Assembly: GCF_009741925.1 (NCBI RefSeq)
Contig: NZ_WPCC01000030.1
Span: 1-37,804, forward strand
Source: Natronomonas sp. CBA1123
Lineage (GTDB): Archaea; Halobacteriota; Halobacteria; Halobacteriales; Haloarculaceae
DNA length: 37,804 nt
Direction: 5' to 3'
In this document: one piece after another, positions 30,300-35,747 of the stretch
How the letters are laid out: each line of letters starts with the position of its first letter
Numbering within the stretch: position 1 is the stretch's first letter
Program-made: the position numbers and the translations under genes
Notes under the pieces: generated by a model
What the model saw: only the letters and a program-made list of their open reading frames with translations
Told to the model about the DNA's origin: nothing
Database searches by the model: none

Positions 30300-31054
30300 T
30301 CGACCCGTTCGGCGAAGCCGAAGCGTGGCTTCACGTCGGTCACCCGCACCTCGACGGTCTCGCCCGCCTCGGTCCCAGAGACGAACAGCGTGTACCCTTC
30401 GACCTTCGCGATGCCGTCGCCCTCGCTGCCGACGTCCTCGATGTCGACTTCGAGTTGGTCACCCTCCCGAACCGGCGCGGTGAGTCGGCCTTTCGCGACC
30501 ATGAACAGCTCCGAGGAGGAGTCCCGGGAGGCCTTCGGGTGAATCGTACGGACGTACTCGAACTCCTCGTCGATGTCGGCCCGCAGGTCGTCGGTGTCCG
30601 GTCCCTCGAACACTTTCGCGACGAAGTCCCCGCCCGGAGCCAGCAGTTCGAGGCTGGTCTCGAAGGCCATCCGGGCGAGATACACCGACCGCGCGTGGTC
30701 CAGCGAGTACTCGCCGGTCATGTTCGGCGCCATGTCCGAAACCACGGTGTCGGCCTCGCCGACCGTATCGATAACCTTCTCGCGAGTGTCGCCTTCGGTC
30801 ATGTCGCCGCGGACAGTCTCGACGCCGTCGATTGGCTTGATGCGCTGGAGGTCGACGCCGACGACGGTGCCCGACTCGCCGGCCAACTCCGAGGCGACCT
30901 GCAGCCACCCACCCGGCGCCGCCCCGAGGTCGACGACGGTGTCGCCTTCGCTGATGAGCCCCGCCTCCTCGTTCAGTTGCTTGAGTTTGTACGCCGCCCG
31001 GGAGCGATACCCTTCCTGTTTCGCCCGGTTGTAGTAGTCGTCCTTGCGAGTCAT
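30296..31054 (-). CDS. rlmE: 23S rRNA (uridine-2'-O-)-methyltransferase RlmE/FtsJ with TRAM domain
   Basis: The 252-residue enzyme methylates ribose 2'-O of rRNA using S-adenosylmethionine. The catalytic K-D-K-E tetrad is readable as K23, D107 (VVSDMAPN), K147 (DFVAKVFEG) and E182 (SSELFMVAKG). The SAM-binding motif is DLGAAPGGW at 42-50, and D84 in RGDMTEGD lies in the cofactor pocket region. After about residue 195 a TRAM domain (GDQLEVDIEDVGSEGDGIAKVEG), an RNA-binding beta-barrel found on archaeal RNA-modifying enzymes, extends the protein beyond the bacterial length. The ATG at 31054 gives the usual start TRKDDYYNRAKQEGYRSR. Confidence 0.93.
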   Translation of the reverse strand: MTRKDDYYNRAKQEGYRSRAAYKLKQLNEEAGLISEGDTVVDLGAAPGGWLQVASELAGESGTVVGVDLQRIKPIDGVETVRGDMTEGDTREKVIDTVGEADTVVSDMAPNMTGEYSLDHARSVYLARMAFETSLELLAPGGDFVAKVFEGPDTDDLRADIDEEFEYVRTIHPKASRDSSSELFMVAKGRLTAPVREGDQLEVDIEDVGSEGDGIAKVEGYTLFVSGTEAGETVEVRVTDVKPRFGFAERVD

Positions 31055-31190
31055 GTGTACCCCACCGGATTCCGTGTCGGAACGGCCGGCGAATTCGCGT
31101 TCATATCGGGACTGACGCCGCCGAATCGGAAATGGGCATCGGATAGCGCTGGTCGACGGCGAGCGTCGTCCCTGACGGCCCGTTTCGTCC

Positions 31191-31202
31191 CCATTTATTT
31201 TA
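31191..31202 (+). promoter_or_regulatory. Probable promoter of the FilR1-type regulator gene
   Basis: CCATTTATTTTA, about 25-34 bases upstream of the ATG at 31225, is the strongest TATA-like element in this gap and predicts a leaderless or nearly leaderless mRNA. The rest of the 31055-31190 gap holds no gene I can support. Confidence 0.55.
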
Positions 31203-31224
31203 GAATACGACCCGAAGCACCCGT

Positions 31225-32025
31225 ATGGTTGACGCTCACGCCGAGCTCGATTTTCTGATTCGCTCGGAAAACCGGGTGACTGTTCTCAGTCTGTTGGCGA
31301 GGCGTCGCTACTCCGAACGCGAACTCGTCGAGACGACGGAGATGTCCAAGACGACCGTCAATCGAATACTCGAAGATTTCACCGAGCGGGGCTGGATCGA
31401 AGAGGCCGACGAGGCGTACACGACCACTCGGTTCGGAGACGTACTCGCGGACGATTACGAACGGTTCCGGGAGTCGATGGACCTCGCCAGCCGTCTCGGG
31501 CCGTATCGACATCTCCTTCCGATGGAGGAGATGGGCTTCGACCTCCGCCTGCTCACCGACGCGAAGGTCACCGACCCCGACCGTCTCGACACCCTCCAGA
31601 GCGTCGACCGCTGGACCGAGCTCATCCGCCAAGCCGACCGCGTTCGGTTCCTCGCGAACACGGCCAACGAGCCGATTATCCGAACCACCCGAAACGCTAT
31701 CGTCGAGGACGACACGGCCCACGAATCCGTCTTTACGCCAGCGCTGTACGACTACATCCGAAAGCGCCCCAGTCTGTGTGAGATGTTTCGGGAGATGTTA
31801 CGCGAGGGGGCGAGTTTCTATCGAGCGGCCGATGGGACGGACATGCCGTGGTTTATCGCCCTGTACGACGACCTCGTCGGCGTCGGCGGGTTCGACGAGT
31901 CCGGGACTGTTCAGACCGGCTTCGAATCCGACGCCGAACCGGTCTTCGAGTGGGCCGAAGGGACCTTCGAGTCCCACCGGGTAGATGCGACACCCCTCAC
32001 CGTCGAGGACTTCCCGGTCGAGTAG
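31225..32025 (+). CDS. Winged-helix transcriptional regulator with FilR1-type sensor domain
   Basis: The 266-residue protein has an N-terminal winged helix-turn-helix (about residues 8-65; recognition region ELVETTEMSKTTVNRILEDF) and a C-terminal alpha/beta domain (about 95-265) of the FilR1-middle type, common in haloarchaeal one-component regulators. It contains several conserved-looking segments such as VRFLANTANEPI and MFREMLREGASFYRAADGTDMPWFIALYDD. The ligand is unknown. It stands directly upstream of the micro-ORF/SnoaL/FAD cassette on the same strand, separated by a terminator-like hairpin, so it is a plausible local regulator. The TATA box lies just upstream of the chosen ATG. Confidence 0.83.
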   Translation: MVDAHAELDFLIRSENRVTVLSLLARRRYSERELVETTEMSKTTVNRILEDFTERGWIEEADEAYTTTRFGDVLADDYERFRESMDLASRLGPYRHLLPMEEMGFDLRLLTDAKVTDPDRLDTLQSVDRWTELIRQADRVRFLANTANEPIIRTTRNAIVEDDTAHESVFTPALYDYIRKRPSLCEMFREMLREGASFYRAADGTDMPWFIALYDDLVGVGGFDESGTVQTGFESDAEPVFEWAEGTFESHRVDATPLTVEDFPVE

Positions 32026-32047
32026 ACATCGTGTCGCTCCGCGACAG

Positions 32048-32073
32048 CCCCTGCAATATCGCAGGGGTTGTTT
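32048..32073 (+). terminator. Probable terminator of the regulator gene
   Basis: CCCCTGC-aatatc-GCAGGGG, a perfect 7-bp stem with a 6-base loop, is followed directly by TTGTTT. It begins 22 bases after the regulator stop. A separate TATA-like GATAATAAC at about 32100-32108 then marks a likely new promoter for the cassette starting at 32156. Confidence 0.6.
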
Positions 32074-32155
32074 CAGCTCATGGTTTGTATCATTTCACCG
32101 ATAATAACTAAGTGCGTCTCTCCACCTTATTCGACCGGGGTACACGGGTGGTAAG

Positions 32156-32251
32156 ATGAACGTCAGCAGCGACACAGGAGAGACCAACAGTCACACACGG
32201 GAAACGCTTCGACGGCTTTGGGAGCGGCTGTTCGGGGGTGGTGTGCAATGA
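32156..32251 (+). CDS. 31-residue micro-ORF at the head of the SnoaL/FAD cassette
   Basis: ATG at 32156 to TGA at 32249-32251 encodes a short peptide with a polar N-terminus (MNVSSDTGETNSHT) and a basic, amphipathic C-terminal helix (RETLRRLWERLFGGG). It overlaps the following SnoaL-like gene by 4 bases (ATGA), so ribosomes could pass from one to the other. It lies about 25 bases beyond the expected transcription start from the TATA-like GATAATAAC near 32100. A weak Shine-Dalgarno-like GGGTGG stands 7 bases before the ATG. It could be a leader peptide, a partner of the enzymes or chance. I know no family for it. Confidence 0.5.
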   Translation: MNVSSDTGETNSHTRETLRRLWERLFGGGVQ

Positions 32252-32733
32252 GCCAAAGCGCACTGGCCGACCGGAAGACGGCGTACCACGACGCCTACAT
32301 CGAGGCGTGGAACGACCACGACCCCGATGGTGTGGTCGAACAGTTCGCGGACGGGGGAACGTACGTCGACCCGCTCTTCGAGGAGCCAATCGGGGGCGAG
32401 GAAATCGCCGAGTTCGTCAGACTCACTGCCGAGCGGTTCCCGGATTTCCGGTTCGAACAACGTCACGTGTTGGACGTACCCGAAGAGAGTATCCGAATCG
32501 AGGAGTGGACGATGCACGGGACACACGAGGGGATGCGCGAGGGACTGCCACCGACCGGGAACACCATCGCACTCGACGGGACGAGCGTCGTCGAAATCGG
32601 TGCCGGCGGCATCCGAGAAATCAGAGGGTACTACGACCAGAAGGAGTTGGCCGAGCAACTCGGATTGACCTTCCCCGCGGTTGTCGGTCAACTGCCCACG
32701 ATGGTCGTCGGGGCCGCAAAGGAGGTGTTGTGA
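32248..32733 (+). CDS. SnoaL-like / NTF2-fold protein (polyketide-cyclase type)
   Basis: The 161-residue protein has the NTF2-like cone fold pattern of SnoaL ester cyclases: first helix AYIEAWNDHDPDGVVEQFADGG, then strands with TYVDPLFEEPIGGEEI, RFPDFRFEQRHVL and EWTMHGTHEGM, ending in the core strand IREIRGYYDQKELAEQLGL. Related proteins catalyse aldol-type cyclisations or bind small hydrophobic molecules; here only a ligand-binding or cyclase/isomerase role can be suggested. The ATG at 32248 overlaps the 31-residue micro-ORF stop. An FAD monooxygenase is encoded just downstream, a combination often seen in aromatic/polyketide tailoring. Confidence 0.82.
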   Translation: MSQSALADRKTAYHDAYIEAWNDHDPDGVVEQFADGGTYVDPLFEEPIGGEEIAEFVRLTAERFPDFRFEQRHVLDVPEESIRIEEWTMHGTHEGMREGLPPTGNTIALDGTSVVEIGAGGIREIRGYYDQKELAEQLGLTFPAVVGQLPTMVVGAAKEVL

Positions 32734-32738
32734 GAAGC

Positions 32739-32828
32739 ATGTCGAGTCCGGAAGTCACCGACGCATCGCTTCTTTTCACGTTGGGGATTGCCTCCGAGTG
32801 TGGCGAGTTCATCGTGGAGCATCTATGA
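32739..32828 (+). CDS. 29-residue micro-ORF between the SnoaL-like and FAD monooxygenase genes
   Basis: ATG at 32739 to TGA at 32826-32828 encodes a small hydrophobic peptide: polar MSSPEVTD, then SLLFTLGIASECGEFIVEHL with one cysteine. The stop overlaps the monooxygenase ATG by 4 bases (ATGA). A strong Shine-Dalgarno match, GGAGGTG at 32721-32727, sits inside the last codons of the SnoaL-like gene 11 bases before this ATG, and no other start uses it. The monooxygenase has only a weaker GGAG nearby. These features favour real translation. It may be a translational coupler, a small subunit, or a decayed gene remnant. Confidence 0.55.
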   Translation: MSSPEVTDASLLFTLGIASECGEFIVEHL

Positions 32829-34183
32829 CTGTCGCTACGATTCCGGAGTACGACCACAGCAACGTCGCGATGGTCGGCGAGCACGCCGTCGTCGTCGGCG
32901 GAAGTATGGCTGGACTGGTCGCCGCGCGTGTGCTCGCGGACGCGTTCGAGCGAGTGACCGTAATCGAGCGGGACGCCTTTCCCGACGAACCGAGACCCCG
33001 CCGTGGCGTTCCGCAGGGAAACCACGTCCACGCGCTGCTCGAAGCCGGACGGGACACCCTCGAAGACCTGTTTCCGGGGTACAGCGACGACCTCGTCTCG
33101 GCGGGGGCGATGGACATCGACCTCTCGACCGATTTCAACTTCTACGACGAAGGAGATTTCGTCGCAAGCGGTTCACACCACGTGTCGATGTACTGTGCGA
33201 CCCGGCCCCTCATCGAATACGTGACATGGCGCCGACTCGCGGCAATCGATGGCGTGGCGCTCCGTGACGAGTGCCACCTGACGGAGTATCTCATGGACGA
33301 CACCGGGACGACCGTCGTTGGCGTGACGGTCCGAGACGAGACAGGGACCACCGAAGAGGTCGAGGCCGACCTCGTCGTCGATTGTACGGGTCGGACGTCG
33401 TCGACACCCGAGTGGCTCGCCGACCACGGCTACCGACGACCCCCGAGAGACGAGGTGGAAATCGACCTCGTGTACAGTACGATACTCGTCGAACGGCCAC
33501 CGACGGACATGCGAGCGTTCCACGTGATGCCGTGTCCGCCACGAGCTCGGAGCACGGTCACGCTCCCAATCGAGGACGACCGCTGGGTCGTGACGCTGTC
33601 GGGGCTCCACGGCGACCATCCACCCGCTGACCTCGACGGGATGTTGGAGTTCGCCAAGAGCCTCCCGGTCGACGCAGTCGCCCGGATTATCGAGGACCAC
33701 GAAATCGTCTCCGACGGCGTCGAACAGTACCCGTTCCCGGCGAATTTGCGACGACGATACTGGGAGTTAGAGCGGTTTCCCGATGGACTCGTCGTCCTCG
33801 GAGACACTATCGCGAGTTTCAATCCCATCTACGGACAGGGGATGTCGGTGGCCGCTCTGGAGGGGCTCCAGCTCCATCACGCGCTTGCTGCAGGCGGACG
33901 GGATGACCTCGCCGTGCGCTTTTTCAACCGTGTCGAGAGCGTCGTCGACAACGCGTGGAACGTCTCCGTTGGCTCGGATTTCCGCTTCGAGGAGACCACC
34001 GGACCGAAGCCACCGGGAACCGACATCCTCAACCGATACTTGTCCCGAATGACGCGGAAGGCCCACGACGACGGGACGCTGGCCGACGCTTACAGCCGTG
34101 TCGTCACCATGGAGGAACCCCCGACCTCGTTGCTCCGTCCATCCATCGTGTGGCGTGTGGTCAAACCGTCGCTCACCACCTAG
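32825..34183 (+). CDS. FAD-dependent monooxygenase (aromatic-hydroxylase/PHBH superfamily)
   Basis: The 452-residue flavoprotein has the ADP-binding motif VVVGGSMAGLVAARVLAD near residues 21-38, with acidic end VIERD, the segment RRGVPQGNHVHALLEAGRD, DLVVDCTGRTS in the middle, and the second FAD motif LVVLGDTIASFNPIYGQGMS near residue 325. This set is typical of flavin monooxygenases acting on hydrophobic or aromatic compounds, best known to me from actinobacterial secondary-metabolite clusters. Substrate and product are unknown. Its ATG overlaps the 29-residue micro-ORF stop. Apparent actinobacterial flavour raises the possibility of horizontal transfer, unproven here. Confidence 0.87.
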   Translation: MTVATIPEYDHSNVAMVGEHAVVVGGSMAGLVAARVLADAFERVTVIERDAFPDEPRPRRGVPQGNHVHALLEAGRDTLEDLFPGYSDDLVSAGAMDIDLSTDFNFYDEGDFVASGSHHVSMYCATRPLIEYVTWRRLAAIDGVALRDECHLTEYLMDDTGTTVVGVTVRDETGTTEEVEADLVVDCTGRTSSTPEWLADHGYRRPPRDEVEIDLVYSTILVERPPTDMRAFHVMPCPPRARSTVTLPIEDDRWVVTLSGLHGDHPPADLDGMLEFAKSLPVDAVARIIEDHEIVSDGVEQYPFPANLRRRYWELERFPDGLVVLGDTIASFNPIYGQGMSVAALEGLQLHHALAAGGRDDLAVRFFNRVESVVDNAWNVSVGSDFRFEETTGPKPPGTDILNRYLSRMTRKAHDDGTLADAYSRVVTMEEPPTSLLRPSIVWRVVKPSLTT

Positions 34184-34286
34184 CAGGTGGAACTGCCGGC
34201 GAGAGTGGTCGAGGCCACCACGACTCGCGGGTGCTGAGCAAAGCGACGAACGGTTCGAGACCACACTGGTTCGGCAATTCCTGCCA

Positions 34287-34294
34287 GTTTTTAA
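34287..34294 (+). promoter_or_regulatory. Probable lpdA promoter
   Basis: GTTTTTAA centred about 32 bases upstream of the lpdA ATG (34323) is a good TATA-like box and predicts a leader of only a few bases. It separates lpdA from the monooxygenase cassette; the rest of 34184-34322 shows nothing further. Confidence 0.55.
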
Positions 34295-34322
34295 CCCCGG
34301 CGTGAGAGTGGGCTGACAAGGA

Positions 34323-35747
34323 ATGGTCGTAGGAGACATCGCAACCGGAACGGAGGTACTGGTCATCGGCGGCGGCCCGGGCGGCTACGTCGCCGCTATT
34401 CGCGCCGGGCAACTCGGGTTGGACGTGACGCTCGTCGAGAAGGACGCCTACGGCGGCACCTGTCTCAACACGGGCTGTATCCCATCGAAGGCGCTCGTCC
34501 ACGCGACCGATGTCGCCCACGAGGCACGTGGCGCCGAACACATGGGCGTCTACGCCGACCCCGCCGTCGACCTTCAGGGGATGGTCGACTGGAAGGACGG
34601 CGTCGTCGACCAACTCACGAGCGGCGTCGAAAAACTGTGCAAGGCGAACGGCGTCAACCTCGTCCCCGGACGGGCGGAGTTCGAAGACGAAAACACCGTC
34701 CGCGTCGCCCACGGCGGCGAAGGGCAGGGCAGCGAGTCCATCGAGTTCGAACACGCTATCCTCGCCACCGGGAGCCGCCCCATCCAGTTGCCGGGCTTCG
34801 AGTTCGACGACGACCGGGTTCTCGATTCCAGCGGCCTGCTATCGCTGAATGAGCTCCCCGATTCCCTGCTCGTCGTCGGTGGCGGTTACATCGGCATGGA
34901 ACTGTCGACGGTGCTGGCGAAGCTCGGTACCGACGTGACCGTCGTCGAGATGCTCGACGACATCCTGCCGGGCTACGAGGACGACGTTACGCGGGTCGTC
35001 CGCGAGCGCGCCGAGGAACTCGGTATCGAGTTCAACTTCGGCGAAGTCGCCCAGGAGTGGGATGACACCGGGTCCGAAGCGTTCGTCACGACCGAAGACG
35101 AGGACGGCGAGACCCACGAGTATACCGCCGAGAAGGTGCTCGTCGCCGTCGGCCGCCAGCCCGTCACCGACACCGTCAACCTCGACGCCATCGGCCTCGA
35201 AACCGCCGAAGAGGGCACTATCGAGACCGACGACCAAGCCCGCACGAGCGTCGAGAACGTCTTCGCCGTCGGCGACGTGGCCGGCGACCCGATGTTGGCC
35301 CACAAGGCGTACAAAGAGGGCCACGTCGCAAGCGAGGTCATCGCCGGCGAACCCGCGGCCCTGGACTATCAGGCCGTCCCGGCGGCCGTCTTCACCGACC
35401 CCGAAATCGGTACCGTCGGGATGACCGAAGCCGACGCCGCCGACGCCGGCTTCGACCCCGTCGTCGGCGAGATGCCGCTTCGGGCCTCCGGGCGCGCACT
35501 CACCCTCGACGAAAGCGAGGGCTTCGTCCGCATCGTCGCCGACGCCGAAACCGAGTTCGTCCTCGGTGCCCAAATCGTCGCTCCGGAGGCCTCGGAACTC
35601 ATCGCCGAGGTCGGCCTCGCCATCGAGATGGGCGCCCAACTCGAAGACGTCGCCGCGACCATCCACACCCACCCGACGCTGTCGGAAGCCGTCGCCGAGG
35701 CCGCCGCCAACGCCCGCGGCGAAGCGACACACACGCTGAATCGGTAG
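34323..35747 (+). CDS. lpdA: Dihydrolipoyl dehydrogenase (E3)
   Basis: The 474-residue flavoprotein reoxidises dihydrolipoyl groups of 2-oxoacid dehydrogenase or glycine-cleavage complexes with NAD+. It shows FAD motif GGGPGG at 16-21, the redox disulfide C47 and C52 in GGTCLNTGCIPS, the NAD-binding region VVGGGYIGMELS near 187-198, the second FAD motif VENVFAVGDVAG, and the C-terminal active-site His-Glu pair H450 and E455 in HTHPTLSEA. Length is normal. It has its own promoter. No E1 or E2 genes flank it here, so its partners must be encoded elsewhere, unlike the pdh/oadh-lpd clusters I recall from other haloarchaea. Confidence 0.94.
   Translation: MVVGDIATGTEVLVIGGGPGGYVAAIRAGQLGLDVTLVEKDAYGGTCLNTGCIPSKALVHATDVAHEARGAEHMGVYADPAVDLQGMVDWKDGVVDQLTSGVEKLCKANGVNLVPGRAEFEDENTVRVAHGGEGQGSESIEFEHAILATGSRPIQLPGFEFDDDRVLDSSGLLSLNELPDSLLVVGGGYIGMELSTVLAKLGTDVTVVEMLDDILPGYEDDVTRVVRERAEELGIEFNFGEVAQEWDDTGSEAFVTTEDEDGETHEYTAEKVLVAVGRQPVTDTVNLDAIGLETAEEGTIETDDQARTSVENVFAVGDVAGDPMLAHKAYKEGHVASEVIAGEPAALDYQAVPAAVFTDPEIGTVGMTEADAADAGFDPVVGEMPLRASGRALTLDESEGFVRIVADAETEFVLGAQIVAPEASELIAEVGLAIEMGAQLEDVAATIHTHPTLSEAVAEAAANARGEATHTLNR

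Follow-up and report, generated by a model that had tools for sequence, protein, structure and literature searches.

The closest described counterparts of the locus analyzed here pair an epoxidase with a SnoaL-like or NTF2-like enzyme. In xiamenmycin, a LasC-like epoxidase and a SnoaL-like cyclase (XimD and XimE) form an established pair, and a ligase-type enzyme, XimA, is also part of the system (PMC4053376). In polyether pathways, an epoxidase is found with an NTF2-like epoxide hydrolase, as in Lsd18/Lsd19 and MonCI/MonB (PMC8827043, PMC10560226, PMC6018673). For short frames in front of genes, the relevant background is haloarchaeal: 72% of Haloferax transcripts are leaderless, and of 97 long 5'-UTRs in Haloferax volcanii, 16 contain upstream ORFs of 15-31 aa (PMC4983044), while termination-reinitiation assisted by Shine-Dalgarno (SD) motifs is documented for haloarchaea (PMC6728339).

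The window, by which we mean the whole stretch of 37,804 nucleotides from Natronomonas sp. CBA1123 that was analyzed, contains a four-frame cassette in which a SnoaL-like gene and a flavin monooxygenase gene are each preceded by a micro-ORF. Its features are as follows.

31056..34268, no strand: segment without counterpart in close relatives (blastn against the empty sites of genomes G118, G117 and G123)
31225..32025, + strand: FilR1-type (HVO_A0261 family) transcription regulator (PF25213, 90.3 bits; PF08350, 61.9 bits; each over its curated cut-off)
32043..32072, + strand: terminator-like 12-bp hairpin 3' of the regulator gene (-27.8 kcal/mol, z -5.5 for 32030-32085)
32101..32112, + strand: TATA-like AT-rich stretch 5' of the cassette, a putative promoter read off the sequence
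32156..32251, + strand: micro-ORF1, open frame of 31 aa, pI 6.5
32248..32733, + strand: SnoaL/NTF2-like protein, 161 aa (PF07366; predicted SnoaL2/AclR-like fold)
32721..32727, + strand: GGAGGTG, Shine-Dalgarno-like, 11 nt 5' of the micro-ORF2 ATG
32739..32828, + strand: micro-ORF2, open frame of 29 aa, pI 4.05
32816..32819, + strand: GGAG, 5 nt 5' of the monooxygenase ATG
32825..34183, + strand: 452-aa flavin monooxygenase, Lsd18/LasC-MonCI kind (phmmer against PDB)

A preliminary description of this DNA had reported the four frames, the ATGA at both junctions between a micro-ORF and an enzyme gene, a FilR1-type regulator just upstream, and a hairpin separating the two. The coordinates hold to the base, both regulator models, HVO_A0261_N and FilR1_middle, exceed their cut-offs, and the hairpin, with its 12 pairs, is real and strong. 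The SnoaL ATG is preceded by GGTGGTG, and micro-ORF2 has an alternative start at GTG 32730, which would lengthen it to 32 aa and have it overlap the SnoaL stop codon by GTGA.

We read the locus as an acquired epoxidation and epoxide-opening operon with a FilR1-type regulator, its micro-ORFs being lineage-specific leader frames in cis, and give this reading as a whole a probability of about 0.5. The operon and its regulator would have been gained by horizontal transfer. The flavin enzyme would probably epoxidise, via a C4a-hydroperoxyflavin, an alkene in a substrate that is hydrophobic and perhaps an isoprenoid, and the SnoaL-like protein would probably open or cyclise the epoxide through acid-base catalysis. 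The leader frames would have no conserved peptide product and, if translated, would act in cis by ribosome hand-over at ATGA. A bolder version, in which a mobile haloarchaeal module for epoxidation and epoxide opening, controlled by a FilR1-type regulator, turns isoprenoids into oxygen heterocycles, its leader micro-ORFs forming a termination-reinitiation chain, is a long shot; if true, newly arisen leader micro-ORFs would give an operon a built-in chain of ribosome hand-over.

Homology to the empty sites of G118, G117 and G123 ends at 31055 and resumes at 34269. In these close relatives, whose lpdA genes are 95-96% identical, ftsJ/rlmE adjoins lpdA, and 31056-34268 is replaced by fewer than 260 bases of other DNA. 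Because the relatives carry ftsJ and lpdA side by side without the segment, it was probably acquired in this lineage; loss from the relatives is the formal, less probable alternative. The spot between ftsJ/rlmE and lpdA is variable in the genus: G123, G117 and G118 have other DNA of 73-257 nt there, and G131, G133, G125 and G126 kilobases of different DNA.

The regulator may control the cassette. In G144, which has the closest monooxygenase (64% identical), a FilR1-type gene likewise lies directly upstream, in a genome that has no more than two of them at E <= 1e-8. Among about 60 other monooxygenase loci, six distinct ones have a FilR1-type gene within the flanks covered, with a further locus besides; copy numbers of 0-14 per genome (mean about 6) would predict about one. 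This co-occurrence is suggestive only, because these loci are among the hits from which the profile was made. The scan for sigma-70 promoters is inapplicable to archaea.

The repeated ATGA layout had been called unlikely by chance, a claim that stands weakly and was overstated. A gene start of the form ATGA itself contains TGA, so that all the layout further requires is a start codon and an open frame ahead of the gene, and the micro-ORFs serve as a caution that an overlapping stop comes free with any such start. When each gap was subjected to local dinucleotide shuffling with the ATGA held fixed, an ATG frame with 25 aa or more that ends at the ATGA appeared in 11.7% of shuffles for the first gap and 4.7% for the second, or a joint chance of about 0.5% if the two are independent. 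In about 404 kb of the genome, 14 of 124 called genes starting with ATGA have an ATG frame of 25-60 aa ending there, some of these frames being tails of real genes. Among homologues of the monooxygenase, 53 of 62 start with ATGA or GTGA, and for them too the overlapping stop is thus built in. ATG frames of at least 20 aa precede 9 of these 53, against 5.0 expected; with GTG starts allowed the count is 21 of 53, against 12.8 expected from shuffles, but these loci include related genera and cannot be counted as independent, and what they encode is dissimilar and in many cases rich in Arg.

Codon usage was scored as log-odds trained on this genome and compared with windows of real genes and with spurious frames inside genes. 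Micro-ORF1 (score -0.12) falls at the 5th percentile of the former and the 82nd of the latter, and so resembles spurious frames. Micro-ORF2 is borderline (score 0.17; 16th and 98th percentiles, respectively). Protein searches of 146 family genomes at E up to 10 found no homologue of either, the best non-self E values of 0.03 and 0.10 being chance-like. The nearest SnoaL genes (G066, 78% identical; G353, 72%) lack both a micro-ORF before them and a monooxygenase behind them; similarity at the DNA level to these two sets in 16-29 bases into the gene and ends before its stop codon. Such micro-ORFs are missing as well from monooxygenase homologues with 55-64% identity and from an operon of G143 in which SnoaL, AMP-ligase and monooxygenase genes follow one another, and none of the genomes searched has the same cassette. 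The preliminary description had itself held that homologous loci lacking either micro-ORF would leave an ordinary two-gene operon, and the homologous loci do lack them, although the frames may still be translated. The micro-ORFs are therefore probably leader sequences or chance frames rather than working peptides, and cis-acting leaders at most.

Of these two possibilities, the one that survives best as a rival is that both are untranslated frames, the TGA supplied by the gene's own ATGA and the gap happening to be open. We regard this as a serious contender at somewhat under even odds. The built-in stop, the shuffle frequencies of 12% and 5%, and the lack of homologues, even before the nearest SnoaL genes, all fit it. 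It has to accommodate the low joint probability and a micro-ORF2 that fills its gap, is acidic, and outscores nearly all spurious in-gene frames. In addition, from the putative promoter, a SnoaL 5'-UTR with no ORF in it would exceed 90 nt, which is atypical.

Translated leaders that couple in cis, with termination at TGA and reinitiation on the overlapping enzyme ATG, are a tentative alternative that we hold a little less probable; it is compatible with our preferred reading. In its favor are the exact ATGA overlaps, the GGAG and GGTGGTG before the two enzyme starts, the acidic micro-ORF2 with its borderline codon score, the haloarchaeal precedents cited above, and the somewhat raised frequency of upstream frames before monooxygenase homologues. 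As in documented ATGA pairs (PMC6728339), the overlap is of four bases and an SD-like motif lies inside the upstream frame, but here that frame is an ORF of 29-31 aa and not a known gene. As in Haloferax volcanii (PMC4983044), frames of 15-31 aa precede an ordinary gene, but here a single operon has two of them, both with ATGA at the end, and micro-ORF1 is hardly acidic. The GGAG and ATG of the monooxygenase sit in a hairpin (window 32792-32848, z about -2), so that initiation there could depend on translation through micro-ORF2; accessibility of this start is low, yet inside the range of ordinary positions. The codon usage of micro-ORF1 and the smallness of the frame excess, which includes related genera and unalike sequences, also count against coupling. 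The term couplers, which had been offered for the peptides, may still apply in this cis sense. Some other explanations of the intergenic regions were rejected. Rfam gave no match for a riboswitch or other known RNA in 31000-34400, the region of micro-ORF1 folds worse than its shuffles (z +2.3) and so is no structured leader, and comparison by eye found no likeness between micro-ORF2 and the AMP-ligase of G143 of which it might have been a remnant.

The small-molecule tailoring pathway that had been proposed is of the right kind and can be defined more sharply, since the FAD enzyme groups with Lsd18/LasC and MonCI, whose SnoaL-like partners are known. In a phmmer search of PDB, these are the only matches of the monooxygenase at E <= 0.001 (Lsd18, 2.3e-56; MonCI, 1.1e-55; all matches 2e-56 to 9e-55), with homology spanning residues 19-435. 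Models of aromatic hydroxylases match far worse, the best NCBIfam E value being 5e-9 and under the cut-off. The FAD motif is retained (GGSMAG for GGGMAG), and His69 aligns with the flavin-stacking His71 of Lsd18 (PMC12144862). The substrate-contact residues differ, A70, I72 and W74 of Lsd18 corresponding to V68, A70 and L72. The signature motifs of polyether epoxidases, RKGxPQxRHxHxLWSxGA and AFNPxxGHGMSxxA (PMC10560226), are matched at 11 of 18 positions by RRGVPQGNHVHALLEAGR and at 12 of 14, most of the second motif, by SFNPIYGQGMSVAA. Because these motifs are not fully matched, we file the protein as an Lsd18/MonCI homologue, probably with epoxidase-type chemistry judging from its sequence, and not as a polyether epoxidase. 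A further difference from those systems is that the genome (97% complete) gives no sign of a modular PKS in a search with the ketoacyl-synthase profile PF00109, the matches being partials of 50-60 residues in frames of 389-438 aa, thiolase-like in size. An isoprenoid substrate is plausible by analogy, since Lsd18 takes farnesyl acetate (PMC12144862) and MonCI linalool (PMC10560226).

The SnoaL-like protein scores 68.8 bits against PF07366 (curated cut-off 28.4), and its structural model has a pLDDT of 84.7, the last 19 residues excepted, which are of low confidence. By both sequence and fold, the nearest structures are SnoaL2/AclR hydroxylases and ester cyclases. The NTF2-like epoxide hydrolases of polyether pathways have the same fold (Z 15.2 for MonBI-MonBII, 14.9 for SalBIII, 14.7 for Lsd19), as do limonene epoxide hydrolases at Z about 15, a value that does not discriminate because many other NTF2-like proteins align equally well. 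A C-terminal tail resembling QLGLTFPAVVGQLPTxxxGAVK is common to a haloarchaeal SnoaL subgroup (32655-32733 in the window; L032-L035, L040, L044); it is the part modeled with low confidence here.

Likened by enzyme kind, the cassette shares with xiamenmycin the adjacency of epoxidase-like and SnoaL-like genes but has no prenyltransferase or chorismate lyase, and the window has no ligase. The resemblance is fuller in G143, where a divergent FilR1-type gene lies beside tightly packed genes for SnoaL, an AMP-ligase and a monooxygenase homologue, the ligase/monooxygenase junction being TGATG. The AMP-ligase thus stands between the other two, and this operon (L232, 8437-12944; also L096) has the same enzyme kinds as XimE, XimA and XimD. 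Elsewhere in the fetched flanks, a SnoaL gene occurs near the monooxygenase only in L109 and L121, where it is farther away, and at two bacterial loci. Plasmid records hold no adjacent SnoaL-monooxygenase pair, and in Salinirubellus the two are about 10 kb apart. As most haloarchaeal homologues of either enzyme stand apart from the other, the pairing may be incidental.

This bears on the alternative that the flavin enzyme serves catabolism or detoxification, as a hydroxylase or some other class A monooxygenase, and that the SnoaL-like gene is an unrelated neighbor. The partly matched motifs, the breadth of the family (soil bacteria, Streptomyces and haloarchaea), the usual lack of a SnoaL gene nearby, and a match of the SnoaL-like protein, below cut-off, to ketosteroid isomerase-related proteins (TIGR02096) speak for it. 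With polyene epoxidases the only solved structures matched at E <= 0.001, and a SnoaL-ligase-epoxidase operon in G143, we consider it less likely than not. Haloarchaeal enzymes that public records label FAD-dependent monooxygenase can be recognized as polyene epoxidase homologues, sometimes found beside genes for a SnoaL-like protein, a ligase and a FilR1-type regulator, and this offers a concrete chemistry that can be tested for. Such pathways had been described as rarely described in haloarchaea, which does not mean rare: of 392 genomes from the order, 82 have the monooxygenase at E <= 1e-150, and what is unusual is its direct adjacency to SnoaL. On MAG contigs labeled Nitriliruptoraceae (Actinobacteria; L113, L121), the monooxygenases are 51-54% identical, within the haloarchaeal range, from either transfer or misbinning.

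It is very improbable that the micro-peptides work as protein partners for both enzymes, as had been suggested for the pathway. All that speaks for it is where the frames lie, between enzyme genes, and that micro-ORF2 has an acidic pI; against it, no homologue was found in 146 family genomes, and the frames are absent from the loci of the nearest SnoaL homologues and from the G143 operon. A search for conserved micro-ORFs beside homologues found none, and only two frames of 27 aa, before the monooxygenases of G016 and G008, are alike. In this best-matched pair, codon positions 1 and 2 differ at least as often as position 3, which also argues against a peptide; since the differences are not concentrated at third positions, kinship of the DNA suffices as explanation. 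The two frames (L084, 3232-3315, in the orientation that puts the monooxygenase on the + strand; L085, 3418-3501) have a common core, AACAGCGACGGCAAACGAGGC, which is perhaps a regulatory site rather than part of a peptide.
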